Positions 12,123-28,246 of a stretch of 64,000 nucleotides of DNA are shown here, one piece after another. The first letter of the stretch is position 1; each line of letters starts with the position of its first letter. Made by a program: the position numbers and the translations under genes. The notes beneath the pieces are model-generated. The model did not search any database and was not told the origin of the DNA. It saw only the letters and a program-made list of their open reading frames with translations. The stretch is from Longimicrobium sp. (GTDB taxonomy: Bacteria > Gemmatimonadota > Gemmatimonadetes > Longimicrobiales > Longimicrobiaceae): positions 1 through 64,000 of the forward strand of contig NZ_DATIND010000009.1 in assembly GCF_035474595.1 (NCBI RefSeq), written 5' to 3'.

Positions 12123-13097
12123 TCACGGCCATGATTCGGACGAGAGCGGCCGCAGCACCTCCAGCAGGCGGTCGGTGTCGCGGTAGGTGTCCAGCCCCAG
12201 GCGCAGCGTGTACGCGGGGCGCTCGCAGGCGGAGCGGAGGAACGCGAGGACCTCGGCGGCGCAGGCGCGGTCGGCCAGCAGCCAGGGCGACTGCCGCATC
12301 AGCCCCGCCAGCGCCTCCGCCGCGGGGAGCGGCGACAGCACGGTCGGGAGATTCGCATCCACGCGCGGGAAGAGGAGGCCGGCGAGCGGGGCGGTCCGCT
12401 GCCAGCGCCCGGGCCAGCGCCGGTGCGGATCGACCTCGCCGCGGCGGTGCAGGGGACTGCCGCCGGCCCACCCCTCGTCCAGGTGGAAGCGCCGCGGCCA
12501 GCCTTCGACCCGGATCCCCCCATCCTCATCCCGAAACAAAACCACATGGTCGTCGCTGACGAAGCGCCACCCGGCCTCGATCAGGTTCACCGACGTGGTC
12601 GACTTCCCTGCGTGCGTATCGCCCGCCAGCAGCCATGCGCCGCCGCCGGGCGCCACCACGGCGGCCGCGTGGGCCAGCGCCCGGTGCATCCGCCCCAGCA
12701 GCAGCGCGCAGGCGATGGTGCACATCGAGTACACGTCCCAGGCCACCGCCTCCCGCGTCTCCTCGCCGAACGCGGCGGGAACGAGCCCGGCGGTCCCGCG
12801 CGCCAGGTCCGTCCATCCCCCCGAGCCCGCGGTGCAGCGGAAGACGGCGCGTCCCGCGGCCGCGTCCACCCACGCGTCCGCCGCGCCCAGCCGCAGCGCC
12901 GGCGCCCCGCCGGTCGCCTCGGCCGCCGCGGGATCGCCCGAGGCGAGGCGGATCACCGCGCCGCCGCCGGACGGAGCCGGATCGTCGTAGGGAAGAAGCG
13001 GGAGCCAGCGCTCCAGGAGCACAGCGAGCGCGGGCTCCGCTTCCACGCGGAGCCCGCCGTCGGCCAGCAGGGGAAAGATCGATGGAGAGGGGCTCAA
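12123..13097 (-). CDS. HPr-kinase-like protein, RiPP tailoring kinase candidate (kinase 1)
   Basis: 324 aa from a TTG start at 13097 that overlaps the B2 stop (ttga). Residues 159-167, GDTHAGKST, are the P-loop; FVSDDHVVLF follows about 25 residues later and corresponds to the metal/catalytic Asp region of the HprK C-terminal domain. The N-terminal 120 residues have no recognisable fold. HprK homologues in some lasso-peptide clusters (PadeK/ThcoK type) phosphorylate the C-terminal Ser of the precursor; that and the neighbouring PqqD and B2 genes suggest a peptide kinase. Its paralogue at 26448-27422 has exactly the same length and the same SDDHVVL and EGWPRRF blocks. Confidence 0.82.
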   Translation of the reverse strand: MSPSPSIFPLLADGGLRVEAEPALAVLLERWLPLLPYDDPAPSGGGAVIRLASGDPAAAEATGGAPALRLGAADAWVDAAAGRAVFRCTAGSGGWTDLARGTAGLVPAAFGEETREAVAWDVYSMCTIACALLLGRMHRALAHAAAVVAPGGGAWLLAGDTHAGKSTTSVNLIEAGWRFVSDDHVVLFRDEDGGIRVEGWPRRFHLDEGWAGGSPLHRRGEVDPHRRWPGRWQRTAPLAGLLFPRVDANLPTVLSPLPAAEALAGLMRQSPWLLADRACAAEVLAFLRSACERPAYTLRLGLDTYRDTDRLLEVLRPLSSESWP

Positions 13098-13480
13098 GCG
13101 CGCAGCACCAGCGGCTCGTGGCCGTCGCCGGAGTCCTGCCGCTCGCGGTCGGCGCGGACCACCCAGGCGTGCGCCTCGATGTCGCCCTCGCCGCTCTTCA
13201 CCCCGATCTTCACGATGGCGGGGATGCCGTAGCGGCGCAGCACCAGGCACTCGGCCACGCTGCGGTACAGGCAGGTGTTCCGCCAGCGCCGGCCGGGAAC
13301 GCGCGCCAGCAGCCGCAGCAGCCGCATGGCCGAGCCCGTCGCGCCGCGGGGAACGCGGGTCTCCGCACGCGAGCGCGCGGGGGGCCGCAGCAGCTCGGTG
13401 AGCCGCGGCCCCTCGATCCAGCGCGGCGCCGCCAGCGCGGCCCGCGCGCCCGCCAGCACCGCCCCCGCCGTGCGGATCAC
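13094..13480 (-). CDS. Lasso-peptide B2-type leader protease (transglutaminase-like)
   Basis: 128 aa from a GTG at 13480 that overlaps the PqqD stop (gtga). The diagnostic C-terminal half reads RRWRNTCLYRSVAECLVLRRYGIP (Cys70) and DIEAHAWVV (His104), matching the Cys-His pair of B2 proteases that cut the leader after the conserved Thr-x of lasso precursors. The N-terminal 60 residues are a helical region, as in the family. Usual B2 length is about 120-150. The operon order PqqD-B2 equals the split B1-B2 arrangement. It should act in the cytoplasm with the PqqD protein delivering the leader. Confidence 0.88.
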   Translation of the reverse strand: MIRTAGAVLAGARAALAAPRWIEGPRLTELLRPPARSRAETRVPRGATGSAMRLLRLLARVPGRRWRNTCLYRSVAECLVLRRYGIPAIVKIGVKSGEGDIEAHAWVVRADRERQDSGDGHEPLVLRA

Positions 13481-13752
13481 GCCGCCGCCACGATCAGCCG
13501 GCGCCGCTCCAGCTCCTCCAGCAGCCGGTCCAGCTCGCCGGCGGCCTCGTGCGGCTCCACCTCGAAGTTCGCGCACAGCTCGTCCACCAGCCCCTGCCGG
13601 TCCATCCCCCGCTCCAGTCCCTTCCACACGCACGCCGCGGTGGCGTTCAGGCGGAAGTAGTCCTTGGTGTCCATGTTCAGGAGCACCGCCTCGCCCTCCA
13701 GGTGCGCCGCCAGCACGTCGGCGGGCACGCTGTACCTCGCGTTCTCGTTCAT
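13477..13752 (-). CDS. PqqD-family RiPP recognition element (B1-like)
   Basis: 91-aa PqqD-like protein. EGEAVLLNMDTKDYFRLN forms the three-strand beta sheet that clamps leader peptides in RRE domains, followed by ATAACVWKGLERG and the helical bundle to residue 90. In RiPP systems such proteins present the precursor to the B2 protease and tailoring enzymes. I use the ATG at 13752; a GTG at 13767 overlapping the upstream stop (gtga) is also possible and would add five residues. Translational overlaps on both sides tie it to an upstream beta-propeller lipoprotein and the downstream protease. Confidence 0.88.
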   Translation of the reverse strand: MNENARYSVPADVLAAHLEGEAVLLNMDTKDYFRLNATAACVWKGLERGMDRQGLVDELCANFEVEPHEAAGELDRLLEELERRRLIVAAA

Positions 13753-13763
13753 GCGCTCTTTCG

Positions 13764-14900
13764 TCACGGCGCCGCGGCCACCGCGGGGTGCCCCACGGTG
13801 CCGGTGCCGGTATCGATCAGGGTGCTGGCTGCCGGCGTGGCCGGGTCGGTCCAGCGCAGGTGCGTAACGCCGCCCGCGGTCTCCAGGTACACCAGCCGTC
13901 CGTCCGGCGTCCACGCCGGCTGCGACTTGCTTCCCGCGCCCGAGGTCAGCTGCTGTACCGCGCCGCCGGAGATGGTGAGGAGGAAGATCTCCACCGAGCC
14001 GGTGCGGTTGGATACGAAGGCCAGCGTCTTCCCGTCGGGGCTGAAGGCGGGCTCCACCTCGGCGGTGTTCCCCCCCGCCAGCAGCGACGGGGCCGCGTTG
14101 CCCACCTGCTCGAAGATGTCGGCGGTGCCGTTGGCGGTGGCCACGAAGGCCAGCGTGCTCGACGGCGCCCACGACGGGTACGTCTCGATGGAGCCGTCGA
14201 AGCCGAAGGCGGGGGCGGCGCGCTGGGGGTTCGAGGCGTTCGCGCCGGCCACGTACACCTTGGTGACGTCGCTCTCCAGGTAGGCGTACGCCAGCCGCTG
14301 CCCGTCGGCCGAAAGCGCCGGCGTGGTCTCGTCGCGCGGGGTGGTGGTCAGGCGCGTGTTGGCGCCGCCCGCGAGCGGCACGCTCCACAGGTCGCCGTTG
14401 CCGCTGCGGTAGCTCACGAACACCACGTTCGACCCTGCCACCGTGGGGTCCTGGTCGTCGCCCGGGTCGGTGGTCAGCGCCGTCAGGTTCTGCCCGTCCA
14501 GGTCCACCCGCCAGATGTCGCGGTTGCCCGCCACCACCCGCTCGAACACCACCACCGGCGGCGCGGCCACCGTCAGCTCCGCCGTCCCCACCTTCTTCGG
14601 CGCGCTGGCGGTGATGGAGACGGCGCCGGCGCGCAGCAGCTTCACCGTGGCGTTGTCCACCACCTGCGCGGCGTCGGCCGGGCGCACCGTGAGCGTGTAG
14701 TCCCCCGGCGCCAGCGGCTGCCCCGCGGAGGTGACGCTGAGGGTGATGGTGGAGCCGCGCTCCAGCCGCCCCGAGGTGGTCACCGCCAGCGGCGACGCGA
14801 TGTCGGTGGGCCCGCCGCCGCCGTCGCAGGCGGCAAGGAGCAGCGACGCGGTAGCCAGTGCGGCCAGGGCGCGGGTGGGGCGGAAGCGGAGAGTGGACAT
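13764..14900 (-). CDS. TolB/WD40-like beta-propeller lipoprotein
   Basis: 378 aa. MSTLRFRPTRALAALATASLLLAAC gives a lipobox with Cys25. Residues about 35-125 form an Ig/Big-like beta domain. From about 130 come five or six TolB-type blades, each with D-x-W/F and P-x-(W/F)SPDG-like phrases (GNRDIWRVDLDG, PALSADGQRLAYA, PAFSPDGKTLAFVSNRTG, PAWTPDGRLVYLE). Such propellers bind proteins or peptides in the periplasm. The last base of its stop overlaps a possible GTG start of the PqqD gene, so it is in the RiPP operon, which is unexpected for a surface protein. Closely related to the propeller of the 15200-16603 gene. Confidence 0.85.
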   Translation of the reverse strand: MSTLRFRPTRALAALATASLLLAACDGGGGPTDIASPLAVTTSGRLERGSTITLSVTSAGQPLAPGDYTLTVRPADAAQVVDNATVKLLRAGAVSITASAPKKVGTAELTVAAPPVVVFERVVAGNRDIWRVDLDGQNLTALTTDPGDDQDPTVAGSNVVFVSYRSGNGDLWSVPLAGGANTRLTTTPRDETTPALSADGQRLAYAYLESDVTKVYVAGANASNPQRAAPAFGFDGSIETYPSWAPSSTLAFVATANGTADIFEQVGNAAPSLLAGGNTAEVEPAFSPDGKTLAFVSNRTGSVEIFLLTISGGAVQQLTSGAGSKSQPAWTPDGRLVYLETAGGVTHLRWTDPATPAASTLIDTGTGTVGHPAVAAAP

Positions 14901-15199: not shown

Positions 15200-16603
15200 C
15201 TAGAACCGCACCCCCGACGCGTGGTCGGCCGCGAACGGCGTGGTGATCGACTTCACCGTCGCCGGGCTGTCCGGGTCCAGCATGCACAGGTGGAACACCC
15301 CGCCCTGCACGCAGGTGTACACGATCAGGGCCCTGGAGCGGCTGGAGCCGTCGTACACCCACGTCGGCGCGCCGTCGCTGCCGGTGCGCGTGGTCAGCCG
15401 CGTGACCGTGCCGGTGCCCACCGTCAGCATGTACAGCTCGGTGTCGCCCGAGCGGTTGGAGGCGAACACCACCCGCGTGCGGTCCGGGCTCCACGCCGCC
15501 TCCACGTCGGCGGAGGTGCCGCCGGTCAGCAGCGAGGCCGTCCCGCCGGTCTTCAGCGGGAAGATCCCGCTCACCGAGTAGATGTCCGCCGACCCGCCGG
15601 CCGCCGAGGTGAACGCCAGCCGCGACGAGTCCGCCCAGTTGGGGCTGGCCTCGATGGCGTCGCCCGAGCCCGGGTTGGCCGCGGCCGCGCTGTCGGCGGT
15701 GGGGCGGCCGTACCAGATCTTGGTGACCCCGCCGGGCGCCCCCTGCGCCCAGGCCAGGCGCCTGCCGTCGGGCGAGAGCGCCGGGCTGGTCTCGTTCAGC
15801 CCCGTCGTCGCCGTCAGCCGGGTCTCCGTCCCACCCTTCAGGGGCACGGAGTACAGCTCGGCGTTCCCGTCGCGGTAGCTGGTGAACACCACCGTCCCCT
15901 GCGCCACCGTGGGGTTCGCGTCGGTCAGCGCGCTGGTGCTCAGCTTCTTCAGGTCGTTGCCGTCCACGCCCATCCGGTAGATGTCGCGGTTCCCGCCCGG
16001 CGCCATCTCGAAGACGATGGTGGGAACGATCGGGGTGGAGACGTACACGGTGAAGGCGAACGAGACCACCGAGGGCGGCATCTTCCACTTCCAGCGCTGC
16101 GGCGGCGTCACCGAGTCCGGCGCCAGCGTGCCCGGGTAGAAGAAGAAGGGCTGCCCCGAGGCGCTGAACGTTCCCACGTCGCCGCCCGCCATCTCCACGA
16201 AGCCCGTGCCCGCCGTAACGTTGGGCCCGGTGGCGAAGAACACCGAGATGCCGCTGACCGTGGTGCCGTCGGAGCCCATCCGCTGCGTGAGCAGGTTCTG
16301 CACGGTCACGTCGGCCGAAAAGATCGAGTCGGCGCCGTACGCCACGTTGCTGGACTGCACGAACACGTACTGCCGCTGTCCGCCGATGATGCGGTCGCCG
16401 CGCAACCCCCCGGGCGCCGCGTCGGCGCAGGAGAGCCGCTTCGACCGCACGTCCGCGTTGCAGGAGATGGCCGCCACGGTGTTGGGCGGCGTGATCGCGG
16501 GCGGATCGGCGGGGGTGATCCCGCCGCCGTTCTCCGAGCACGCGGCGAGGGCCAGGATCGCGAAAGCCGCCGCCTGTGCGCGGCGGATGCGGAGCTTCGT
16601 CAT
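15200..16603 (-). CDS. Lipoprotein: shared N-terminal beta domain plus TolB-like propeller
   Basis: 467 aa. MTKLRIRRAQAAAFAILALAACS is a lipoprotein signal (Cys22). Residues about 38-185 are a beta domain also found in the 18143-19513 protein: both have an N-terminal Cys...SC pair, a VQNLL/IRNLIPQ strand, PNVTAGTG or PTVTAGTG, DGVGTF or DVGTFSASGQPF, and a W-containing strand before PSVV/PSTV. Residues about 195-460 form a TolB-like propeller (GNRDIYRMGVDG, PALSPDGRRLAWA, AAWSPDRTRVVFASNRSG). A surface or periplasmic binding role is likely. The ATG at 16603 follows a weak ggaa. A promoter candidate lies at 16694-16721. Confidence 0.85.
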   Translation of the reverse strand: MTKLRIRRAQAAAFAILALAACSENGGGITPADPPAITPPNTVAAISCNADVRSKRLSCADAAPGGLRGDRIIGGQRQYVFVQSSNVAYGADSIFSADVTVQNLLTQRMGSDGTTVSGISVFFATGPNVTAGTGFVEMAGGDVGTFSASGQPFFFYPGTLAPDSVTPPQRWKWKMPPSVVSFAFTVYVSTPIVPTIVFEMAPGGNRDIYRMGVDGNDLKKLSTSALTDANPTVAQGTVVFTSYRDGNAELYSVPLKGGTETRLTATTGLNETSPALSPDGRRLAWAQGAPGGVTKIWYGRPTADSAAAANPGSGDAIEASPNWADSSRLAFTSAAGGSADIYSVSGIFPLKTGGTASLLTGGTSADVEAAWSPDRTRVVFASNRSGDTELYMLTVGTGTVTRLTTRTGSDGAPTWVYDGSSRSRALIVYTCVQGGVFHLCMLDPDSPATVKSITTPFAADHASGVRF

Positions 16604-16947: not shown

Positions 16948-18078
16948 TCAGTTCGACGGCTTCGCCGCCAGCGCCGCCTCGATCCGCGCGAGCCGCGCCT
17001 CAAGGTCGGAGATGCGCCGGTCGCGCTCGGCCACCTGCCGCTGCAGCTCGGCCGTCCGGTTCTCCAGCGCCTTCACCGCCGCGAAGTTCACCCCGTCGAT
17101 GTCGAGAAGGCCGATGGCCTTGTCGTCGGTGCCCAGGCCGAATGCCGCGCGGAAGTCCTCGGCGAAGGGCCCCATGTGCCGCACCTGCGCCCCCTCGGAG
17201 ATGTAGCTCCAGGTCGACACCGGCACGCCGCGCAGCCGCGCCAGCAGCTCCTCGCCGTCCACGCTGCCGAAGTGGTCCTTCAGGGTGCGGCTCGACGAGC
17301 AGCTGAACACGCCCGAGCCGGCGGGCAGGTTGCACCCGGTGGTCAGCGTGGCGTTGGTGCGGAAGCGGAAGCCGCCCGCGTAGCGCGCCGCGAACTCGTT
17401 GTTGGCCACCGCCTCGATCGAGTCGGTGGTGCTCTCGTCACCCGCCACGAACACGCCGTCGTGCCCGTTGGCGCTGGCCCGGTGCCCCAGCGCCACCGCG
17501 TAGTCGGCGTCGGCGGTCACGCGGTAGCCGATGGCCACGGCGCCCTGCCCGTTGCCGGCCAGGCAGTTCCCCGAAGCGTCGATGGAGCCGGTGGTGTTGG
17601 TGAAGCCGATGGCCACCGAGCCGAAGCCGCAGGCGTTGTTGCTGGCGCCCGCCGAGAACCCGGCCGTCCCGCCCACCTCGTTGCTCCCGCCGAAGGCGGC
17701 GCCGTCCACGCCCGTGACCTTGGTCTGGTCGCCGAAGGCGAAGGTCCCGAACGCGGTCGCCATCGAGCTCTCGCCGCCGGCCCACGAGTAGAAGCCGATG
17801 TTGGCGTCGTCCCACTCCGTGCCGTTGGCGTGCCCCAGCCGGAAGGCGGCCTTGAAGGGGTAGTACATCATCCGGTATCCCGCGCCGGTGGCGGGGATGA
17901 TGCCGATTCCCAGGTTGGTCACGGCCACCACCCCGCCCGCGCTGTCCACGCGGAAGCGGTCGCCCGGGGGCGAGCCGGAGCGCAGGCGCAGCAGGATGTC
18001 GGACTGCGCGGGGGCCTGCGAAACGGCCGCGAGCGTCGCCAGGGCCGCGAGAGCGAGGGTTCTCATCCGATGCATCAT
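16948..18078 (-). CDS. YadA-head-like fibre protein with S74 chaperone domain (fibre 1)
   Basis: 376 aa with a Sec signal (MMHRMRTLALAALATLAAVSQAPA). After a conserved QSDILLRLRSGSPPGDRFRVDS block, residues about 90-250 are YadA-head-type repeats (AVAIGYRVTADADYAVALGHRASANGHDG) that normally build a trimeric left-handed beta roll. SSRTLKDHFGSVDGEELLARLRGV starts an S74 intramolecular-chaperone domain with the Ser-Lys pair, and the C-terminus is a coiled coil (ALENRTAELQRQVAERDRRISDLEARLARIEAAL). Such proteins form trimeric surface fibres. It carries an extra Cys-containing insert (NNACGFG, GNCLAG, TTGCNL, FSCSS) absent from its two paralogues. It follows the lipoprotein gene by 64 bp. Confidence 0.87.
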   Translation of the reverse strand: MMHRMRTLALAALATLAAVSQAPAQSDILLRLRSGSPPGDRFRVDSAGGVVAVTNLGIGIIPATGAGYRMMYYPFKAAFRLGHANGTEWDDANIGFYSWAGGESSMATAFGTFAFGDQTKVTGVDGAAFGGSNEVGGTAGFSAGASNNACGFGSVAIGFTNTTGSIDASGNCLAGNGQGAVAIGYRVTADADYAVALGHRASANGHDGVFVAGDESTTDSIEAVANNEFAARYAGGFRFRTNATLTTGCNLPAGSGVFSCSSSRTLKDHFGSVDGEELLARLRGVPVSTWSYISEGAQVRHMGPFAEDFRAAFGLGTDDKAIGLLDIDGVNFAAVKALENRTAELQRQVAERDRRISDLEARLARIEAALAAKPSN

Positions 18079-18142: not shown

Positions 18143-19513
18143 TCAGAACGACTGCGCCTGGATGCGGAACGAGGTGTTGGTGAGCCGGCCCAGGTCCACC
18201 CTGAGCGGCGCGCGCACCGTGAGGTTGCCGATCAGCGAATAGGTGCCGGAGACCCTCAGGAACGGAACCGTTCCCGCCACCGTGCGCGCGATCCCCGACA
18301 GCTCCAGCACACCCACGGTGTTGGTGATCGAGGCCGAGTTGGTGGTCAGCACGTCGCCCGAGGCGTTCAGGTTGAAGGCGCCCAGGTGCACCGTGGGCAC
18401 CACCCCGCCCGGCGTAAGGTCCAGCACCTCCAGCCCCGCCACGGCCTCGTTCGCGGTGAGGTTCGGGAAGTTCGTGGCCGAGGTGGTGTCGGGAACCAGC
18501 GCCGTGTCCTGCGGCACCGGGGCGATGCTGTCGGGAAGCCAGTTGCTCCCCGTTTCCCACACGTTGCTGGTGGCGCCCGTCCAGGTGCGGCGGATGGGCT
18601 GCACGTTCAGGGTGATCGAGCCGCCCACCGCCACGGTGGCGCCCGAGATGTTCACCCGGTTGGCGGTGACGCTCATCACCGGCGCGCCGAAGCGGTAGCC
18701 GTGCACCACGGCCTGGTCGCCGGTCTCGGAGATGTAGTCGGCGAGCAGCGCGTCGGCCGGGGTCACGGTCCAGTCGATCGCGGTGGCCAGCGAGTCGATG
18801 TTGCCCACGGGGCTGCGCACCACGGCCGTCAGCGTGCGCAGCGTGCCCTCGCGGATGTTGGGGTTCGCCTGCACGTCGATGTAGCCGTTCTCGTACTTCA
18901 CCGGCGCGGCCACGTACAGCAGGAAGCTGAACGTGGTCACGGTGCTGGGCATGTTCAGCTGCCAGGTCTTGGGCGCCGACACCTGGAATTGCTGCAGCAC
19001 CGTGCTGTACTGGTAGAACGGCTCGCCGGCGGCCAGGAAGGTGCCCACCCCGTCGCCCACCACCGAGATGGTGCCCGTTCCCGCCGTCACGGTGGGCCCG
19101 CTGTAGAAGAAGATCCGCACCCCGTTGGGGTCGGGCGTCACGCCGTCGGTGGTGCCCAGCGCCTGCGGGATCAGGTTGCGGATGGTCACGTCGAAGGTGA
19201 AGGCCTGCGTCCCCGCGTTGTAGCTTGCGTTGGTCGAGGTCAGCTTCACGTACACGTTCTGGCTTCCCACGATCAGGCCGCGGATCCGGTCGTTGGCCTG
19301 GGTGGCGGGGCCGCAGCTCACGGTGCGCTGCGCCACGTTGCCCGTGCACTCCAGCGCTGCGATGGGGATGGGGTTACCCGGCGTGGTGGGGGTGCCGGGG
19401 CCGGATGGCGGGGTGGGGGTTACCGGGTTCGCCCGGTCCGTGCATGCCGCGGCTACGACCAGCACTGCCAGCGCCGCGGCCAGCCGGCCTGGGTAACGCC
19501 TGGGGAGTTGCAT
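18143..19513 (-). CDS. Secreted lipoprotein with modular beta domains
   Basis: 456 aa. MQLPRRYPGRLAAALAVLVVAAACT gives a lipobox (Cys24), then a Pro/Thr-rich linker. Residues about 42-190 match the N-terminal domain of the 15200-16603 protein. Residues about 285-456 match the C-terminus of the 24254-26035 protein: TWTGATSNVWETGSNWLPDS, GAFNLNASGDV, SGIARTVAGTVPFLRVSGTYSL, ending FRIQAQSF. The second part resembles the parallel beta-helix modules that begin with a W-x-(G/N)-x-W patch. It starts 23 bp after the radical SAM gene, so it belongs to the precursor B transcript. Role unknown; surface display is inferred. Confidence 0.83.
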   Translation of the reverse strand: MQLPRRYPGRLAAALAVLVVAAACTDRANPVTPTPPSGPGTPTTPGNPIPIAALECTGNVAQRTVSCGPATQANDRIRGLIVGSQNVYVKLTSTNASYNAGTQAFTFDVTIRNLIPQALGTTDGVTPDPNGVRIFFYSGPTVTAGTGTISVVGDGVGTFLAAGEPFYQYSTVLQQFQVSAPKTWQLNMPSTVTTFSFLLYVAAPVKYENGYIDVQANPNIREGTLRTLTAVVRSPVGNIDSLATAIDWTVTPADALLADYISETGDQAVVHGYRFGAPVMSVTANRVNISGATVAVGGSITLNVQPIRRTWTGATSNVWETGSNWLPDSIAPVPQDTALVPDTTSATNFPNLTANEAVAGLEVLDLTPGGVVPTVHLGAFNLNASGDVLTTNSASITNTVGVLELSGIARTVAGTVPFLRVSGTYSLIGNLTVRAPLRVDLGRLTNTSFRIQAQSF

Positions 19514-19536: not shown

Positions 19537-20574
19537 TTATGGGACGCGCCCGGCGTAGGTGAGCGCGACGAGGCGTCGCGGCGCCGCGGGGCCGTGGGGC
19601 CCGGCCGCACCGTGCCATGGACTGCCTGGGAACTCGCGGATCCACTCCATCTTCCCCAGCGCCCGCGCGCAGCGGATGCAGGGAAAGCGGTCCAGCTCGC
19701 CGCCGCCGGCCGCCAGCCGCGCGCTCGCCTGCCGCAGCGCCGCCAGCCGCCCGGTGTACCGCTCCCACGCCGCGGTGAACGAGCCGCGGGTCAGGTCGGC
19801 CACCACGTCGGCCTCGTTGTCGCCGTACTCCGAAAGCTGGCAGCACAGCGACAGCCGCCCGCGCGCGTCCACGTAGACGCGGCGGTGCTCGAAGGTGTCG
19901 CAGGCGGGCTCGGGGCCGTCGAAGGGCGCGCCGTAGTCAAGGTACACCCCGGTGCGGCGTCCCTCGGTGCCCAGCGCCAGGATCTCGTCCCGCGCGCCGT
20001 ACCACTCGCGCGGGGCCAGGTCGCTGTCGCGCCCGGCGCTCCCGGGAACCGGCTGCGCCAGCGCGAAGTGCAGGCTCACCGCCCCCAGCGCCTCGGCCAG
20101 GTCGGCCGCCTGCCGCAGCTGGTGCCGGTCGCGGCGGTCCACCACGAACCCCAGCGAGGTGGGGACCTGCCGGCTGGTGAGCAGCGCCACCGCCAGCAGC
20201 ACGCGCCGGAACGAGCCGCGCCCGCGCTCGGCGTCGTGCACCGCCTCGTCCGCGCCCGACAGCGAGAGCCGCACGGCTGTGGGAGGATGGCGGTCCAGCC
20301 CCGGCATCAGCCGGCGCATGTGCCACCCGTTGGTCACGAAGCGGTAGCTCACCCCGCGCTCGTGCAGCGAGGCGATGATGCGCTCCCACTGCGGGTGGAT
20401 GGTGGGCTCGCCGCCGGTCATGCTCACGCCCACCTCGCCGAACAGGGCCCGGGCCTCGTCCACGGTGCGGGCGATGAGGCCGGGGTCCAGGTTGCGAACC
20501 GTGGTCACGTCGTCGCGGATGCAGTGCGGACAACGCAGGTTGCAGTGTTCGGTGATGGCGAAGCCGAGAAGCAT
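19537..20574 (-). CDS. Radical SAM protein with SPASM-like C-terminal Cys cluster
   Basis: 345 aa. TEHCNLRCPHC (Cys11, 15, 18) binds the [4Fe-4S] cluster that cleaves S-adenosylmethionine; VSMTGGEPTIHP is the GGE motif and RLSLSGADEAVHDAERG the strand that follows. The C-terminal region has CDTFEHRRVYVDARGRLSLCC and FPCIRCAR, a Cys set like SPASM/Twitch auxiliary clusters of peptide-modifying enzymes. The gene begins 25 bp after a 57-aa precursor-like peptide gene, the usual placement for a RiPP maturase. The modification cannot be predicted; the peptide has Gly/Pro-rich and Thr/Ser residues as possible targets. Confidence 0.87.
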   Translation of the reverse strand: MLLGFAITEHCNLRCPHCIRDDVTTVRNLDPGLIARTVDEARALFGEVGVSMTGGEPTIHPQWERIIASLHERGVSYRFVTNGWHMRRLMPGLDRHPPTAVRLSLSGADEAVHDAERGRGSFRRVLLAVALLTSRQVPTSLGFVVDRRDRHQLRQAADLAEALGAVSLHFALAQPVPGSAGRDSDLAPREWYGARDEILALGTEGRRTGVYLDYGAPFDGPEPACDTFEHRRVYVDARGRLSLCCQLSEYGDNEADVVADLTRGSFTAAWERYTGRLAALRQASARLAAGGGELDRFPCIRCARALGKMEWIREFPGSPWHGAAGPHGPAAPRRLVALTYAGRVP

Positions 20575-20599: not shown

Positions 20600-20773
20600 T
20601 CAGGGAACGACGGTGCTGCCGCCGCCGCCGGGGCCGCCGCCGCCGGGAATGGCGGGGCCGGTGGCCAGCGTGAGCTCGGTCAGGCGCGGCAGGTCGGCCA
20701 CCGCGGGGGCGATCCAGGGACGGCGTGCGGCGGGCGGAGCCGCCCGTGCCGCGGACGATGGACGTGTGCCCAT
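20600..20773 (-). CDS. RiPP-like precursor peptide B, 57 aa
   Basis: ATG at 20773 preceded by ggagg 6-10 nt upstream. The first 18 residues are Ala/Arg/Pro-rich. Residues 20-36, WIAPAVADLPRLTELTL, match the lasso leader pattern YxxPxLxxxGxxxxxT with W for Y, V for L and P for G; the spacing is exactly conserved with peptide A at 26158-26298. If a B2 protease cuts two residues after the leader start of the Thr35-Leu36 pair, the core is residues 37-57: ATGPAIP, then GGGGPGGGG and STVVP. It contains no Asp or Glu, so a lasso macrolactam is not possible by the known chemistry. Directly upstream of a radical SAM gene. Confidence 0.72.
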   Translation of the reverse strand: MGTRPSSAARAAPPAARRPWIAPAVADLPRLTELTLATGPAIPGGGGPGGGGSTVVP

Positions 20774-21626: not shown

Positions 21627-22037
21627 TTACTGGGGACCGCCTCGTGCGCGCTTGCAGGCGGCCTCGAGAACCGGCCGCACCTGCGCATCGCCGGCCTTCG
21701 CCTTCTGCATGCAGCTGGCGTAGCTCTCCATCGACCCGAGCCGCTGGTTGTAGTCCTTCGCCAGCGCGATGGAGTCGTCGCGCGCGATGCGGATCGAGTC
21801 TTCCACCGTCATCGGGGCCGCCGGGGCGGGGGCCGCGGCCGGCTGGGCCGGGTCCGAGCCCGCGTCCACCGGTGCCGGGCTCGCCGCCGCCGCGGGCGGG
21901 GCCTGCGCATCGTCGTCCTCGTCGCCGTTGCCGCGGCAGGCGCCCAGGAGCGCGCCGGCCAGCAGTGGCAGAACGGCCAGCCGCCGCGCGCCGCGAAGAG
22001 CGGGCGCGGCGGCCGCCAGGGTGTGCCCGAGCCTCAA
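21627..22037 (-). CDS. Small lipoprotein with acidic/Pro-Ala linker
   Basis: 136 aa from a TTG at 22037 that overlaps the stop of the upstream fibre gene (ttga) and is preceded by aggag 8 nt upstream. A long N-terminal region leads to LAVLPLLAGALLGAC, a lipobox with Cys34. RGNGDEDDDAQ and a Pro/Ala-rich linker follow, then a helical segment (MTVEDSIRIARDDSIALAKDYNQRLGSMESYASCMQKAKAG...VLEAACKRARGG) with two Cys. Possibly a small lipoprotein that anchors or caps the fibre encoded upstream; that is inferred only from translational coupling. I do not recognise a family. Confidence 0.7.
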   Translation of the reverse strand: MRLGHTLAAAAPALRGARRLAVLPLLAGALLGACRGNGDEDDDAQAPPAAAASPAPVDAGSDPAQPAAAPAPAAPMTVEDSIRIARDDSIALAKDYNQRLGSMESYASCMQKAKAGDAQVRPVLEAACKRARGGPQ

Positions 22038-23074
22038 TGCCGCTGCTCCTGCAGGCGGCGGACGGCGGCCTCGAGGTCGTCCAGGCGCTGGCGGGTGGCG
22101 TTCAGCTCGGAGCGCAGCTGCGCCACCTCGGCGGTGCGCGCCTGCAGCTCGGCGGTGCGGGTCTCCAGCGCCTTGATGGCCGCCAGGTTCACGCCGTCGA
22201 AGTCGCTCATGTTGATGGTGTGGTCGTCGCTCGTGAACCCGAAGGCGCGGTGCCAGTCCTGCGCCATGGGCCCGATGTGGAAGGTCGAGCGGTCGGCCTC
22301 GTCGCGGTAGCGCCAGGTAGTCACCGGCAGGAGCCGCAGCCGCGCCAGGATGTCCTCGCCGTCGACCGAAAGGAAGTCGTTCTTCCGGTTGCGGTCCGAG
22401 ATCACCGCCCACGAGCTGCCGCCGGCCGACACCTGCACGCCCGTGGTCATGGTGGCGTTGCTGAACAGGCGGATGCCGCCCGCCGCGCGCACCGTGAACT
22501 GGTTGTTCGCGCTGGCCTGCGTGCTGTCGGTGGTGGACCCGTCGGAGAACACGATGGCGCCGGCGTGGCCGTTGGTGGACGCGCGCTGCCCGATGGCCAC
22601 CGAGTAGTCGGCGTCGGCGGTGGTGCGGTAGCCGAGGGCCACCGCGCCGGTGCCGTCGGCGTTGGCGGTGTAGCCCAGCGCGTTGCTGTAGCTGCCCAGC
22701 GCCGTGCTCTGGTACCCCATGGCGAACGAAGCGAGGCCCAGGGCGATGGTGTTGTAGCCGCCCGCCCAGGTGTAGTAGCCCGTGTTGGGGTCGTCCCACT
22801 GCGTGCCCGCCGAGCCGATCGAGCCCGCGCGGAAAGCCGCCTTGTTGGGGTGCCACATCAGCCGCTCGCCCGCACCGGTGAACGGAATGATCCCGACCCC
22901 CAGCACGCCCTTGGCCACGAAGCCGCTGGCGCTGTCCACCCGGAAGCGGTCGCCCAGCGGCGAGCCGGAGCGCAGGCGCAGGAGGATGTCGGACTGCGCG
23001 GACGCGCTCGCCGGTGCGAGCACGGCGCCCACGAGGGCAGAGGCCAGGAGGGCCACTCCGATCTTCGCTTTCAT
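22034..23074 (-). CDS. YadA-head-like fibre protein with S74 chaperone domain (fibre 3)
   Basis: 346 aa from the ATG at 23074 (a GTG at 23080 is also in frame). MKAKIGVALLASALVGAVLAPASASA is a Sec signal. QSDILLRLRSGSPLGDRFRV opens the mature protein; head repeats (TALGSYSNALGYTANADGTGAVALGYRTTADADYSVAIGQRAST) cover about 105-215. SDRNRKNDFLSVDGEDILARLRLLPVTTWRYR is the S74 start with Ser and Lys, and the last 55 residues are a coiled coil (ETRTAELQARTAEVAQLRSELNATRQRLDDLEAAV). Very close paralogue of fibre 2, 62 bp upstream, so a recent tandem duplication is likely. Confidence 0.87.
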   Translation of the reverse strand: MKAKIGVALLASALVGAVLAPASASAQSDILLRLRSGSPLGDRFRVDSASGFVAKGVLGVGIIPFTGAGERLMWHPNKAAFRAGSIGSAGTQWDDPNTGYYTWAGGYNTIALGLASFAMGYQSTALGSYSNALGYTANADGTGAVALGYRTTADADYSVAIGQRASTNGHAGAIVFSDGSTTDSTQASANNQFTVRAAGGIRLFSNATMTTGVQVSAGGSSWAVISDRNRKNDFLSVDGEDILARLRLLPVTTWRYRDEADRSTFHIGPMAQDWHRAFGFTSDDHTINMSDFDGVNLAAIKALETRTAELQARTAEVAQLRSELNATRQRLDDLEAAVRRLQEQRH

Positions 23075-23135
23075 ATGCACACTCGTCCGGTGCGGGGAAT
23101 GCGCGGCACCCCGGGGGTGCCGCGGCGGGAAAGTC

Positions 23136-24194
23136 CTACCGCGGAGCGTGCGCGGCCTGCTCCAGCTGCCGCAGCCGCTCCTCGAAGCGCGCGTTCTGCT
23201 CGCGCAGCGCGGCCAGGTCGGCGCGCAGCGAGGCGTTCTCGGCCTGGAGCGCCTTCACCTGCTGGCCCTGCGCCGCGGTGCGGCGCTCCAGCGCCTGCAC
23301 GCCGGCCAGGTTCACGCCGTCCAGGTCGCTCATGTTGATGGTGCGGTCGTCGGCGGTGAAGCCGAAGGCGCGGTGCCAGTCCTGCGCCATGGGCCCGATG
23401 TGCAGGGTGGAGCGGTCGGCCTCTTCGCGGTAGCGCCAGGTGGTCACCGGCACGCCGCGCAGCCGCAGGAGCAGGTCCTCGCCGTTGATCGCGCGGAAGC
23501 CTTCCTTGCGGTTCACGTCCGAGATCACGTTCCACGAGCTGCCGCCGGCGTTCAGCGACACGCCCGTGGTCTTGGTGGCGTTGGTGTACAGCCGCACGCC
23601 GCCGGCCGCGCGCAGCGAGAACTGGTTGGCCGCGCTGGCCAGCACGCTGTCGGTGCTCGACTGGTCGGAGAGCACGATGGCGCCGTTGAAGCCGTTGGTG
23701 CTGGCGCGCTGCCCGATGGCCACCGAGTAGTTGCCGTTGGCGGTGCTCAGGTAGCCGAGCGCCACCGCGCCCACGCCGTCGGAGCGTGCGCTGTATCCCA
23801 GCCCCACGCCGTACGACTGCAGCGCCCACGAGCCGTAGCCGGCGGCGATCGAGTAGTTGCCCTGGGCGATGGTGTTGAAGCCCGAGGCCAGCGAGTAGAA
23901 TCCGAAGCTGCCGTCGTCCCACTGGGTGCCGTCCACGCCGCCGGTGCGGAACCCGGCCTTGAACGGGTGCCACATGGTGCGGTCGCCCGCGCCGGTGAAC
24001 GGGATGATGCCGATGCCGATGAAGCCCTTGGCCACGAAGCCGCTGGCGCTGTCCACGCGGAAGCGGTCGCCCAGCGGCGAGCCGGAGCGCAGGCGCAGGA
24101 GGATGTCGGACTGTGCGGCGGCCGGCGTGGCCTGGACCGCCGCGAGAAGGACGGCGCCGAGGGCCGCCATGCGAAGCTGGGTGAACGTCTTCAT
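23136..24194 (-). CDS. YadA-head-like fibre protein with S74 chaperone domain (fibre 2)
   Basis: 352 aa; Sec signal MKTFTQLRMAALGAVLLAAVQATPAAA. The same block order as the other two fibres: QSDILLRLRSGSPLGDRFRVDSASGFVAKG, head repeats (YGVGLGYSARSDGVGAVALGYLSTANGNYSVAIGQRASTNGFNG), SDVNRKEGFRAINGEDLLLRLRGVPVTTWRYREEADRSTLHIGPMAQDWHRAFG, and a long C-terminal coiled coil rich in Gln, Glu and Arg (residues about 295-352). It would assemble as a trimer, with the S74 domain guiding folding and possibly cleaving itself. Starts 60 bp after the 24254 lipoprotein gene. Confidence 0.87.
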   Translation of the reverse strand: MKTFTQLRMAALGAVLLAAVQATPAAAQSDILLRLRSGSPLGDRFRVDSASGFVAKGFIGIGIIPFTGAGDRTMWHPFKAGFRTGGVDGTQWDDGSFGFYSLASGFNTIAQGNYSIAAGYGSWALQSYGVGLGYSARSDGVGAVALGYLSTANGNYSVAIGQRASTNGFNGAIVLSDQSSTDSVLASAANQFSLRAAGGVRLYTNATKTTGVSLNAGGSSWNVISDVNRKEGFRAINGEDLLLRLRGVPVTTWRYREEADRSTLHIGPMAQDWHRAFGFTADDRTINMSDLDGVNLAGVQALERRTAAQGQQVKALQAENASLRADLAALREQNARFEERLRQLEQAAHAPR

Positions 24195-24253
24195 GGTCGC
24201 TGCGAGGGGAATGGGGGAGGCGCGCGGGCGGCGGGGCCCGCGCGCCGAAAGGT

Positions 24254-26035
24254 TCAGTTGGAGTCCGCCTGCAGGCGGAAGCCCGACACCGTCAGCCGTC
24301 CGGCATCCACCTGGATGGCGGCGCGCGCGTTCACGTTGCCGGTGAGCGAGTAGGTGCCCGTGACCCGCAGGGTGGGCACCTTCCCCTGCACCGTGCGCGC
24401 GACGCCGGACAGGAACAGCCGCCCCGAGGTGTTCGTGATCCCGCCGGTAAGCCCCGCGGTCACGTTGGCGCTGGCGTTCATGTCGAAGGCGTTCAGCGCG
24501 ATCAGGGCCCCGTCCTCCACCGTCACGCCGCCGATCTGCACGTTGGCCGCGAGCGACGGGTCCAGCGGCGCGGCCACCGGGATCACCACCGAGTCCAGCG
24601 ACATGGGCACCGCGGCCGGGCTCCAGTTGTTGTTGGTGAACCAGTCGGTGGTCCCCGCGCCGGCCGTCCAGGTGCGCGTGACGCCCGCCACGTCGATGAG
24701 CTGCGTGCCCGTCAGGCGGCGGCCCACGGCGCTCAGCGTGCTGCTGCCGTAGCCGGTGTAGGTGACCACCTGGTTGGCGCTCCCCGACACCAGCGCGGCC
24801 GCGGCGCCCAGGGTGGCCGGCGGGCCCAACTCGGTCAGGTGCACCGTGTCGGCCTGCGCGGTCTTCACGTTGCCGTAGCGGTCCATCGCCTTCACCGTCA
24901 CGGTGAAGGGCACGTTGGTGGCCGGGCGCCCCGGGGTGCCTCCGCGGAAGTACGCGGCGCAGGCGTCCACGGTCTCGCTCGGGCGCAGGATCATGAGCCC
25001 GGCGTACGCCCCCGGCGTCACGATGGTGCGGGTGGGCGACGCCGCGGTGCCGGCGATGCGCAGGCCGCAGATCTGCCGCTGCCCGGGGTAGTCGGGAACC
25101 GCCGCGTCCATCACCGGGCTCCCGTTCAGCACCGTGACCGTGGTGGCCCCCAGCGACGTGGCGCGGTCGCGCAGGCGGCGCACGGCGGCCGTGTCCTGGC
25201 CCTCCTCGATGCTCTCGGTCATCCGCGTCTCGGTGTCCTCGACGATCACCGCCTGGAACGAGAGCGTGAACACGTCGTTCGCGGCCACGGACTGCAGCGG
25301 AACGCGGAACGCCACCGTGAGCAGCCCGTCCCACTGGTTGGGGTCGGCGGCGGCCGACGGGAGGGTGCGGTTGGCGTTCGTGTTCTTGTTGCGGACCACG
25401 AAGCCGTACGGGAAGATGCTGGTGACCCCGGCGGGCGGGGCGATGGCGGCCACCTCGGCCTCGGTGAACGCCTGCAGCACGTCGGGATACGGCGCCAGCA
25501 TGGTCACGAAGTCGGTCCCCAGCGCCACCGCGCCCGAGGGCGCGATGAACGGCGCGATGGTGGGGTCGGCGTTGGTGTTGTCGAACTTGCGCAGCACCGA
25601 CACGGGGGTGCCGGCGATGGTTCCCGTGGTGCTGGCCATGATGAGGGTGAGGTTGTTCAGCGGCGCGGCGGTGCCGTTGCGCACCCGGAAAGTCGATACC
25701 AGGTAGCGCTGGCCGCCGCCGGTGCGGCTGCCGTCCGAGAACGAGCCCGTGTTCACCGACTCGAGGCCCACCCCCGAGGCCACCGGGTTCAGCGACGCCG
25801 AGATCGCGCCGGTTTCGCCCGGAAGGCGCATGGGCGTGGCCGTGGAGGTCATCTGGTCGGTGCCGATGCCGGTGATGGTGATCTCGTACACCCCCAGCAC
25901 GCGCGGCGTCTTGGGGCCGCCCGTGTCGGGAGGAGTGGTGCCCGTGAGCGTGCGGTCCTGCGTGCAGGCCGCCGCGGCGAACGCCACCAGGACGAACGCG
26001 GCACGGATCGAGGCGAAGCGCATGGGGTTTACCAT
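24254..26035 (-). CDS. Large secreted lipoprotein with beta modules
   Basis: 593 aa. MVNPMRFASIRAAFVLVAFAAAACTQ is a lipoprotein signal (Cys24); the ATG at 26023 is an alternative start. Residues about 45-290 form an N-terminal beta-rich domain (QRYLVSTFRVRNGTAAPLNNLTLIMAS). Residues about 300-425 have an Ig-like strand pattern with two Cys (ICGLRIAG, DACAAYF). Residues about 430-593 are homologous to the 18143-19513 protein C-terminus: TWTAGAGTTDWFTNNNWSPAA, NAFDMNASANV, SGVARTVQGKVPTLRVTGTYSLTGNV, ending FRLQADSN. Downstream of precursor A (122 bp) and upstream of two fibre genes. Likely cell-surface; function unknown. Confidence 0.83.
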   Translation of the reverse strand: MVNPMRFASIRAAFVLVAFAAAACTQDRTLTGTTPPDTGGPKTPRVLGVYEITITGIGTDQMTSTATPMRLPGETGAISASLNPVASGVGLESVNTGSFSDGSRTGGGQRYLVSTFRVRNGTAAPLNNLTLIMASTTGTIAGTPVSVLRKFDNTNADPTIAPFIAPSGAVALGTDFVTMLAPYPDVLQAFTEAEVAAIAPPAGVTSIFPYGFVVRNKNTNANRTLPSAAADPNQWDGLLTVAFRVPLQSVAANDVFTLSFQAVIVEDTETRMTESIEEGQDTAAVRRLRDRATSLGATTVTVLNGSPVMDAAVPDYPGQRQICGLRIAGTAASPTRTIVTPGAYAGLMILRPSETVDACAAYFRGGTPGRPATNVPFTVTVKAMDRYGNVKTAQADTVHLTELGPPATLGAAAALVSGSANQVVTYTGYGSSTLSAVGRRLTGTQLIDVAGVTRTWTAGAGTTDWFTNNNWSPAAVPMSLDSVVIPVAAPLDPSLAANVQIGGVTVEDGALIALNAFDMNASANVTAGLTGGITNTSGRLFLSGVARTVQGKVPTLRVTGTYSLTGNVNARAAIQVDAGRLTVSGFRLQADSN

Positions 26036-26157: not shown

Positions 26158-26298
26158 TCAGGGGCCGACCGGAACGCTTACGGTCAGCGTGACCAGCGTG
26201 AGGCCACCCAGGTCCTCGACCGAGGGCCGCACGAACGGCTTGCGAGCCTGCGCCGGGGCGCGCTGTACGACGGGTGCATGGGCGTGCTGTTCGGGCAT
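26158..26298 (-). CDS. RiPP-like precursor peptide A, 46 aa (below usual ORF cut-off)
   Basis: The frame runs from ATG at 26298 to TGA at 26158. The peptide starts MPEQHAHAPVVQ and continues with QARKPFVRPSVEDLGG and LTLVTLTVSVPVGP. Residues 22-37, from Phe22 to Thr37, fit the lasso leader pattern YxxPxLxxxGxxxxxT exactly in spacing, with Phe for Tyr and Val for Leu. Cleavage after Thr-Leu would leave a core of only eight residues, TVSVPVGP, with no Asp/Glu, Cys or Lys. Its own promoter lies at 26375-26403, and it sits between kinase 2 and the large lipoprotein. The ribosome site is weak (gagctgag). Homology to peptide B is visible by eye (R-P-[FW]-xx-P-x-V-x-D-L). Confidence 0.72.
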   Translation of the reverse strand: MPEQHAHAPVVQRAPAQARKPFVRPSVEDLGGLTLVTLTVSVPVGP

Positions 26299-26447: not shown

Positions 26448-27422
26448 TCAGGAGACGCCGAACACCGGGGAAAGCGCCATCTGCAACGTTTTCACGTTGC
26501 AGTAGCTGTCGCGGCCGAGCCGCAGGTCGAACGCCGGGAGGCGTGCGGCGGCCTGGAGCAGGCCCAGCAGCGGACCCGCCGCGCCGGCGTCGGCGAGCAG
26601 CCAGGGCGTGTGCCGCAGGAGTTGGGCCAGCGCGGCGGCCGGGTGCAGCGGCTCGACCGCCGTGGGCAGATCCGCCTCGACCCGCGGGAAGATGAGCCCG
26701 GCCAGCGGGGCGGTGCGGCGCCACCGCCCCGGGCCGAACCCCTCCGGGTCCACCCGCGAGCGGACGCCGGCCGAGCTTCCCGCCGCGTATCCGTGGTCCA
26801 GGTTGAAGCGGCGCGGCCACCCCTCGGCGCGGAGGGCGCCGCCGGGGGCGTGCTGCAGCACCACGTGGTCGTCGGAGAGCCAGTCCCACCCGGCGCGGAT
26901 GAGGTTCACGCAGGTGGTGGTCTTGCCGCTGAAGCTCCCGCCGGCCAGCAGCCAGGCGCCGCCTCCCCGGGCGACCACCGCGGCGCCGTGCACCAGCGGG
27001 CGGCCCAGGCGCCCCAGCAGGAGCGCCGCAGCGATGGTCAGCGCGGAGGAAACCTCCACGATCGCCGGTGCCTCGCCGCGGGCATCGATGTGGAGGGTGG
27101 CGCGGCCGGCGGCGAGCTCCACGCGCCCCCCGATTCGCCCCTCCGCCCCGGCGATCACGACTTCGCCGTCCAGCACCCATCCCCCCACCCCCCACATCTC
27201 CATGTTGGGCTCGCCGCCGGGGCGGGCCACCTCCGGCTCTCCGGCCTCCACGCGGATCAGCGCGGCGGCGGAGGCGGCGGAGACGAGCGGGCGGTCCAGC
27301 CGCGGCATCCACGGCTCCGCCAGCTCGCGCAGGCCGGGATCGGCGACGATGGCGAGCGAGCCGTCTTCCAGCAGCGCCTGGGCCGCGGCGGGCGGAGCGT
27401 CGGGGGGGAGCGTGGCCGTCAT
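26448..27422 (-). CDS. HPr-kinase-like protein, RiPP tailoring kinase candidate (kinase 2)
   Basis: 324 aa, equal in length to kinase 1. ATG at 27422 overlaps the formyltransferase stop (atga). Residues 161-169, GGSFSGKTT, are the P-loop; WLSDDHVVLQ follows, then EGWPRRFNLDHGY. The C-terminus (DLRLGRDSYCNVKTLQMALSP) corresponds to LRLGLDTYRDTDRLLEVLRPL of kinase 1. The N-terminal 115 residues differ more. HprK-type domains with this layout phosphorylate peptide or protein Ser/Thr; the nearest candidate substrate is peptide A, with Thr and Ser in its core, encoded 149 bp downstream. Substrate assignment is inference. Confidence 0.8.
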   Translation of the reverse strand: MTATLPPDAPPAAAQALLEDGSLAIVADPGLRELAEPWMPRLDRPLVSAASAAALIRVEAGEPEVARPGGEPNMEMWGVGGWVLDGEVVIAGAEGRIGGRVELAAGRATLHIDARGEAPAIVEVSSALTIAAALLLGRLGRPLVHGAAVVARGGGAWLLAGGSFSGKTTTCVNLIRAGWDWLSDDHVVLQHAPGGALRAEGWPRRFNLDHGYAAGSSAGVRSRVDPEGFGPGRWRRTAPLAGLIFPRVEADLPTAVEPLHPAAALAQLLRHTPWLLADAGAAGPLLGLLQAAARLPAFDLRLGRDSYCNVKTLQMALSPVFGVS

Positions 27423-28246
27423 CGGGCTGGGGTGCCGGCGGGATGGAGATCGGTGGGCCCCGGCGCGAGGGCATCCGGAGCGAGGGAAAGGTCGCCGGGG
27501 TCGCAGCGCGCGGCCCACCGGTCGAAGACGATCTTCGGCGCGCCCGCGGCGGCGGCCGCTTCGGCGGCGGCGAGCGCGGCGGGGTCGGTCACCGCGCGGC
27601 AGAGCGGGTGCCGCTCGTGCTGGGGCGTTCCCGCGGGGAGGGGCCCCGCCGCCGCGGCCGCCGCGATCTCCGCCGCCATCTCCACCCACAGCGCGCCGGC
27701 CGCGCGGCGGAGGTCGCCCAGCGTCTCGCCGCCCGCGAGGCGGACCAGGCGGCGGGAGATGATGGGCCCGGTGTCGATCCCCGCATCCACCCGGTGCGCG
27801 GTGCAGCCGGGCGGCACCGCGCGGAGGACGGAGTTCTCCACCGGGCCGTTCCCGCGGATCCACGGGAGGAGCGCGGGATGGACGTTCACCGTTCCTTCAC
27901 GCGGAACCGCGAGGATCTCGTCGCCCACCACGCCGCAGCCGGCGAGGAGGAGGACGTCGGGCGCCAGGGAGCGGAGGTCGCGGACCATCCGCGCCCCGTT
28001 CAGCGGTCCGGTGACGGAAACCGTCGCGGCCCCCCGGAGCTCTCGCGCCGCGCGCCACGCCCGCAGCCGGCGGCGCGCCCACCGCAGCGCGCGGCGGATC
28101 GCGCCGGGTGCGCCCGTGCGCGCGGGCCCGTCCACGTAGACGAGCACGGCCGCGGGGCGGGCGCCGCGCGCGTCCAGCCGCGCCAGCATGCGCGCGACCT
28201 GCACGCCGCCGCGCGTGACGACCACGACCCGGCGCTTCATCGACAT
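27419..28246 (-). CDS. Formyltransferase-domain protein (Fmt/PurN fold)
   Basis: 275 aa. VNVHPALLPWIRGNGPVENSVL contains the Asn121-x-His123 pair, and GCTAHRVDAGIDTGPII contains Asp158; these are the three catalytic residues of 10-formyl-THF-dependent formyltransferases. MSMKRRVVVVTRGGVQVARML starts the Rossmann-like domain. It lacks the C-terminal OB domain of tRNA formyltransferase, so it is not Fmt itself; the tail (about 185-275) is Ala/Pro-rich. In clusters, such proteins formylate sugars, amines or peptide N-termini. Coupled to kinase 2 by atga overlap, so it may decorate the same molecule. The ATG at 28249-like alternative two codons later (MKRR) is possible. Confidence 0.82.
   Translation of the reverse strand: MSMKRRVVVVTRGGVQVARMLARLDARGARPAAVLVYVDGPARTGAPGAIRRALRWARRRLRAWRAARELRGAATVSVTGPLNGARMVRDLRSLAPDVLLLAGCGVVGDEILAVPREGTVNVHPALLPWIRGNGPVENSVLRAVPPGCTAHRVDAGIDTGPIISRRLVRLAGGETLGDLRRAAGALWVEMAAEIAAAAAAGPLPAGTPQHERHPLCRAVTDPAALAAAEAAAAAGAPKIVFDRWAARCDPGDLSLAPDALAPGPTDLHPAGTPAR

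Follow-up and report, generated by a model that had tools for sequence, protein, structure and literature searches.

The window, that is the whole stretch of 64,000 nucleotides from Longimicrobium sp. that was analysed, encodes on its minus strand a short peptide, here called peptide B, together with a radical SAM enzyme, several secreted proteins and processing enzymes of lasso type. A second short peptide with the same type of leader, peptide A, lies in the same window. The features are as follows.

20600..20773, minus strand: precursor peptide B gene, 57 amino acids plus stop (translation, ribosome-binding site, paralog on contig C46 of the same genome, relatives)
20666..20716, minus strand: leader recognition block WIAPAVADLPRLTELTL, with W(-17), P(-14), V(-12) and T(-2) relative to the predicted cleavage site
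20603..20665, minus strand: predicted core ATGPAIPGGGGPGGGGSTVVP, placed by the lasso-type T(-2) rule and conserved core positions
19537..20574, minus strand: radical SAM peptide maturase, 345 amino acids, SPASM/twitch-like C-terminal domain (PF04055 2e-20)
18143..19513, minus strand: secreted lipoprotein-like neighbour (family c0 in most neighbourhoods of family peptides)
16948..18078, minus strand: secreted protein with YadA-head repeat and Peptidase_S74 intramolecular chaperone (Pfam; recurrent neighbour)
13764-14900 and 15200-16603, minus strand: two secreted TolB-like (PD40) proteins between the S74 protein and PqqD (Pfam; recurrent)
13477..13752, minus strand: PqqD-family recognition element, lasso B1 type (PF05402 1.1e-16; lasso_PqqD 3.3e-14, below cut-off)
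13094..13480, minus strand: leader peptidase, lasso B2 type, transglutaminase-like, conserved Cys and His (NF033537 49.8 bits, cut-off 33)
12123..13097, minus strand: HprK-related kinase, Walker A GDTHAGKS, SDD motif
26158..26298, minus strand: peptide A, same leader type, predicted core TVSVPVGP (no radical SAM gene adjoining; homologue in genome G132)
26448..27422, minus strand: HprK-like protein beside peptide A, Walker A GGSFSGKT
27419..28246, minus strand: formyltransferase-family protein upstream of peptide A (PF00551 2e-16)

The translation of peptide B is MGTRPSSAARAAPPAARRPWIAPAVADLPRLTELTLATGPAIPGGGGPGGGGSTVVP (ORF 20773-20600, minus strand). Immediately 5' of its ATG lies CCGGAGGACCGAC, a good ribosome-binding site, and the Shine-Dalgarno-like CCGGAGGA is found close upstream of the start. 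Over the last 31 codons, a stretch that covers the core and the greater part of the leader block, the paralog on C46 differs from peptide B by six synonymous and no nonsynonymous changes (p ~0.001). Relatives of the peptide are present in 18 of 154 genomes of the order. Because the paralog differs synonymously only, and because of these relatives, we conclude that peptide B is a real gene. The C46 paralog itself is an orphan (L178:3674-8931, G000:C46) with a core identical to that of peptide B. It is flanked by a GntR-domain regulator on one side and by KaiB, KaiC and a PAS/GAF histidine kinase on the other, and this gene order is repeated in L175 (G132:C21).

The initial annotation had described a motif R-P-(F/W)-xx-P-x-V-x-D-L shared by peptides A and B. 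The common leader motif is indeed there, with a correction at its beginning: peptide A reads R-K-P-F, so the shared form is (K/R)-P-(F/W). When the six-frame ORFs of the window (about 118,000 residues) are searched with [RK]P[FW]..P.V.DL, there are exactly two matches, peptides A and B, and the Smith-Waterman score of the two peptides (65) was unmatched in 20,000 shuffles. Peptide A has a homologue in G132 (L051:13891-14031) and a similar locus in G134 (L177). Loci of this type (window:26158-28246, L051:13891-15996, L177:8217-9451) contain an HprK-like protein, a short-core peptide without adjoining radical SAM gene, a secreted protein and S74 proteins. In the window and in G132 a formyltransferase-like gene and the Walker A motif GGxFSGKT are found additionally.

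A gap-free block of 17 residues, W/F-x-x-P-x-V/I/L-x-x-L-P/G-x-L-x-x-L-T-L, is common to all 36 distinct peptides of the family, the genes in relatives having been called with a simple in-house script. Several leader columns were fixed by the regex with which the peptides were gathered, hence column counts are descriptive. T(-2) and L(-1) occur in 36/36 peptides, though the regex permitted other residues there, and W occurs in 35 of 36. Lasso precursors carry YxxPxL at -17 to -12 and Thr at -2 (PMC10368454). When the predicted cut is placed after LTL, W comes to stand at -17, P at -14, V at -12 and T at -2, which is the lasso register, and in the peptide family W or F replaces Y.

Among the 15 of these 36 peptides that we assigned to the cis class by hand, using neighbourhood tables, position 2 of the predicted core is T/S in 14, position 3 is G in 12 and position 6 is I/V in 12, and a [S/T]-[V/T/C/I] tail is present in all 15. 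Cys is found in 4 of these cores, an aromatic residue in 8 and Asp/Glu at positions 7-9 in 3; the core of peptide B has no Cys, no aromatic residue and no Asp/Glu at 7-9. Two Cys each are present in the cores of G130, G131, G133 and G134 and in that of a paralog on contig C65 of the own genome. The Gly-rich core had initially been taken as a sign of radical cross-linking, a reading that the sequences do not support. Gly-rich cores built in the same way are found at orphan loci lacking the radical SAM enzyme and in G128 and G136, and the mean Gly fraction is 0.36 in the cis cores and likewise 0.36 in the other cores, from loci without the enzyme. Since such cores are also found at loci without the enzyme, Gly-richness alone does not indicate this enzyme, and perhaps Gly-rich cores also exist in genomes lacking it. 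Judged from these sequences, the core is not specific to the radical SAM step, a point against the pathway favoured below.

The radical SAM ORF starts at 20574, 25 bp downstream of peptide B as annotated. In relatives a family peptide stands directly 5' of the enzyme gene in 13 of 16 loci. These are 11 of the 13 enzyme places from the order search and, in addition, L079 and L081; the gaps range from -4 to 81 bp. At L078 the peptide lies two genes upstream of the enzyme gene, G123 has a lasso-leader-like peptide 5' of HprK, and in G078 peptide and radical SAM gene are on different contigs. Because of the direct adjacency in 13/16 loci, the enzyme is not a gene that always stands beside unrelated neighbours, and the proposed coupling of a RiPP precursor, with a leader common to peptide A, to an adjacent radical SAM enzyme is supported. 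In the draft assemblies of G128 and G136, which have typical peptides together with PqqD, B2 and HprK, we did not find a close homologue of the enzyme; the G136 peptide lies at a contig end and the G128 PqqD near one, so that this absence may be apparent.

The enzyme belongs to the radical SAM superfamily, as it contains CX3CX2C and matches PF04055 (2e-20). It is present in 12 of 154 genomes of the order, with 49-89% identity to the window copy, except in G123 (37%). Eight Cys are kept across 25 homologues, namely those of CX3CX2C (scored in 24/24, one of the 25 sequences being truncated) followed by C225, C244, C245, C299 and C302, in the invariant pattern C225-X13-G-X4-C244-C245 ... C299-X2-C302. 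The SPASM consensus reads CX9-15GX4C ... CX2CX5CX3C ... C. Its first half and one CX2C are present in the enzyme and the remaining Cys are absent, so that the domain looks twitch-like. The description of the Cys as SPASM-like is partly right, as the second half of the motif is missing. An AlphaFold2 model (pLDDT 84.9, pTM 0.84) matched, among others, SuiB (Z 24.3), SkfB (22.8), BlsE (22.4), anSME (22.0), PqqE (21.1), ChlB (20.5) and EpeE (17.9). In a profile comparison with solved structures PqqE and SkfB lead, PqqE being the best sequence match. The predicted fold thus speaks for a peptide maturase that carries a SPASM/twitch-like domain, without pointing to any one reaction. A presumed extra Cys, conserved, adjoins a presumed cluster ligand, as judged by counting and a rough HMM alignment with SkfB rather than by geometry. 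A sequence alignment of the window enzyme with the C-terminal Cys of EpeE was not achieved.

The genes around peptide and enzyme recur in the order peptide, radical SAM, secreted lipoprotein, S74/YadA-head, TolB-like, PqqD, B2, HprK, with losses and insertions, in G135, G138, G134 and G133. PqqD, B2 and HprK are all present in the peptide cluster of G000 (the own genome), G133, G134, G135 and G138; L081 has PqqD and HprK, and B2 was not called there. Cys and His of B2 and the GK[ST] and DD motifs of the kinase are kept in nearly all copies checked. A scan of genome contigs revealed homologues of the enzyme in Brocadia, Jettenia, Byssovorax and Acidobacteria. In these distant relatives HprK and PqqD, often with B2 or NTP_transf_5, stand beside the radical SAM gene, and several have a peptide with lasso-like leader and a core that is not Gly-rich. 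Secreted proteins with YadA-head/S74, TolB-like or Ig-like parts (window:13764-19513, 22034-26035) recur beside family peptides, also at loci without radical SAM gene. In G137 (L167:3139-6996), genes for PqqD, B2, HprK and two ABC-2 type transporter proteins accompany a related peptide, and there is no radical SAM gene.

We consider it probable that peptide B is the precursor of a modified ribosomal peptide with a lasso-type front end and without lasso cyclase, which is matured by the PqqD protein, the radical SAM enzyme, B2 and the HprK-type kinase. The PqqD protein would present the peptide, bound through the W(-17)xxPxV block of its leader, and the adjacent radical SAM enzyme would modify the core via hydrogen abstraction, most likely at a conserved beta-branched residue, either Ile/Val6 or Thr/Val of the tail. 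B2 would then cut after LTL, with Thr at -2. Kinases in lasso clusters phosphorylate Ser of the precursor, PadeK the C-terminal Ser and BsfK Ser3 (PMC9266682, PMC10368454). By analogy with these two enzymes, the HprK-type kinase probably phosphorylates a conserved Ser/Thr at position 2 or in the tail.

The exact lasso leader register, the kinase and the presence of a B1 protein (PqqD-type RRE, PF05402 1.1e-16) and a B2 leader peptidase above the NF033537 cut-off could also speak for a true lasso peptide with its cyclase gene at another place in the genome. Indeed, PF00733 proteins exist in the own genome, all on contigs other than that of peptide B, and a separate lasso-like locus on contig C26 (L182:7625-9976, G000:C26) encodes an Asn synthase together with PqqD and a peptide whose leader contains the motif SYQAPAL; the cyclase type hence exists in the organism, outside the peptide B cluster. 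However, the cyclase on C26 is accompanied by a PqqD and a peptide of its own, and an HMM built from three Asn synthases of the own genome found no Asn-synthase-like cyclase in 33 neighbourhoods. Since, in addition, ring-forming Asp/Glu at 7-9 is missing from peptide B and from all but 3 of the 15 cis cores, the initial view that peptide B is not a lasso product is supported, and we regard a cyclase acting from another locus as extremely improbable. Only slightly less remote is the idea that the peptide, instead of being secreted, is a scaffold on which a small redox cofactor is built, comparable to PqqA for PQQ. PqqE as best sequence match among solved structures, the presence of PqqD and the lack of a recognised transporter in the window cluster would suit such a scaffold, but the core has no Glu-Tyr pair, there are multiple precursor copies per genome, and secreted proteins recur beside the peptide. 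The alternative that deserves more weight concerns the enzyme itself: leader removal and phosphorylation by PqqD, B2 and the HprK kinase may be the primary maturation, with the radical SAM step as optional tailoring in some lineages and the Gly-rich core serving another purpose. We consider this less likely than not. The same core design is found at loci without the enzyme and peptide A loci lack it as well; G136 has peptide, PqqD, B2 and HprK with no radical SAM gene between them and no close homologue in the genome, and G137 has the arrangement described above. On the other hand, G128 and G136 are draft genomes with contig ends at or near the relevant genes, and in 13/16 of the loci that do have the enzyme the linkage is tight.

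For the radical step within the favoured pathway, thioether links of the sactipeptide or ranthipeptide type appear very improbable. The two Cys each in the cores of G130, G131, G133, G134 and the C65 paralog, the SkfB-like fold and a StsB match among the NCBIfam models, far below cut-off, would be in line with them, yet 11 of 15 cis cores are Cys-free, and the enzymes beside the Cys cores of G131, G133 and G134 are 76-82% identical over the compared stretch to the window copy, which faces a Cys-free core. Among enzymes that share at least 70% identity, some act beside cores that contain Cys and aromatics and others beside cores that lack them. Since the cores of closely related enzymes often have neither, thioether and aromatic cyclophane linkages are disfavoured, and these sequences make a common reaction that depends on Cys or on aromatics unlikely. 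C-C or C-X cross-linking by the enzyme is possible. Our leading guess is epimerisation, put forward tentatively, and cross-linking without Cys comes close behind it, equally tentative. Epimerisation of Val/Ile by EpeE depends on a critical Cys (PMC8326336), and the beta-branched residues together with the extra conserved Cys near the presumed cluster ligand would fit a similar reaction here. Against this stands the structural match of the model to EpeE (Z 17.9), which is weaker than that to SuiB or SkfB. To some other reaction we give the same tentative standing as to epimerisation.

Among known systems, the paeninodin/Bsf lasso systems with discrete B1, B2 and HprK-type kinase are similar in the register (aromatic -17, P -14, aliphatic -12, T -2), in the PqqD-type B1, transglutaminase-like B2 and kinase, and in the NTP_transf_5 genes of some relatives. 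They differ in that, at the peptide B locus, there is no Asn-synthetase-like cyclase and no ring-forming Asp/Glu in the peptide, and a radical SAM gene adjoins the precursor. The RRE-Finder study of 2020 counted about 300 lasso-type discrete RREs co-occurring with radical SAM enzymes (PMC7470986). In outline this is the same gene combination; in the part of the study that we cite they were counted as lasso-model false positives, with no product named and without a precursor family, core design or protease/kinase set. The SynChlorMet cassette (NCBIfam ScmC/D/E/F) likewise combines HprK-like, PqqD-like and radical SAM/SPASM proteins, and ScmF is the best NCBIfam match. Membership was rejected, all scores being far below the cut-offs (ScmF 74.5 vs 400, ScmD 24.6 vs 100, ScmC 25.4 vs 125). 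Epipeptides (EpeE/YydG) and proteusin epimerases would be comparable in having a radical SAM enzyme that acts on Val/Ile with a critical Cys (PMC8326336), but are without lasso-type leader machinery and show a weaker fold match. SuiB and SkfB, the best structural matches among peptide maturases, are only 12-15% identical and carry a fused RRE, whereas the peptide B system uses a separate PqqD protein. For peptide B, membership in the sactipeptides/ranthipeptides and in the cyclophanes/triceptides is likewise disfavoured, as its core lacks the donor Cys of the former and the aromatic residue of the latter.

A description of the peptide family was not found in the part of the literature searched, on SynChlorMet, Longimicrobium RiPPs and Gemmatimonadota radical SAM precursors. 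The lasso-type leader, the radical SAM partner and the lasso-type processing genes without a ring-closing enzyme make this look like an undescribed family of modified peptides. It is conceivable, as a bolder and still tentative reading, that it forms a RiPP class of its own. In such a class a twitch-like radical SAM enzyme would stand in for the lasso cyclase, acting on lasso-type precursors whose cores are Gly-rich and free of Cys, and one enzyme would serve several precursors at scattered loci, one of them beside kaiB/kaiC. If so, lasso-type leader recognition and cleavage would be a module common to a second, radical-based peptide class, and the roughly 300 recognition proteins that RRE-Finder, as far as cited here, dismissed as false lasso matches would be given a likely group of products. 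Radical SAM chemistry on a core free of Cys and poor in aromatics would be unusual, and readily testable on a 57-residue substrate, and multiple precursors for one enzyme in one genome would constitute a natural library.

Other small peptides were noted in the same material. Runs with a conserved 'L.VESFxT...GTVxGH' leader and Cys-rich tails (L180:5570-6332, 10593-11056; L006 on contig C109) are apparently another RiPP precursor family. Furthermore, a small peptide with GTGCMACCSGGVDP beside a protein of about 300 amino acids (L065:4828-5004, G128:C208) is possibly a further precursor.
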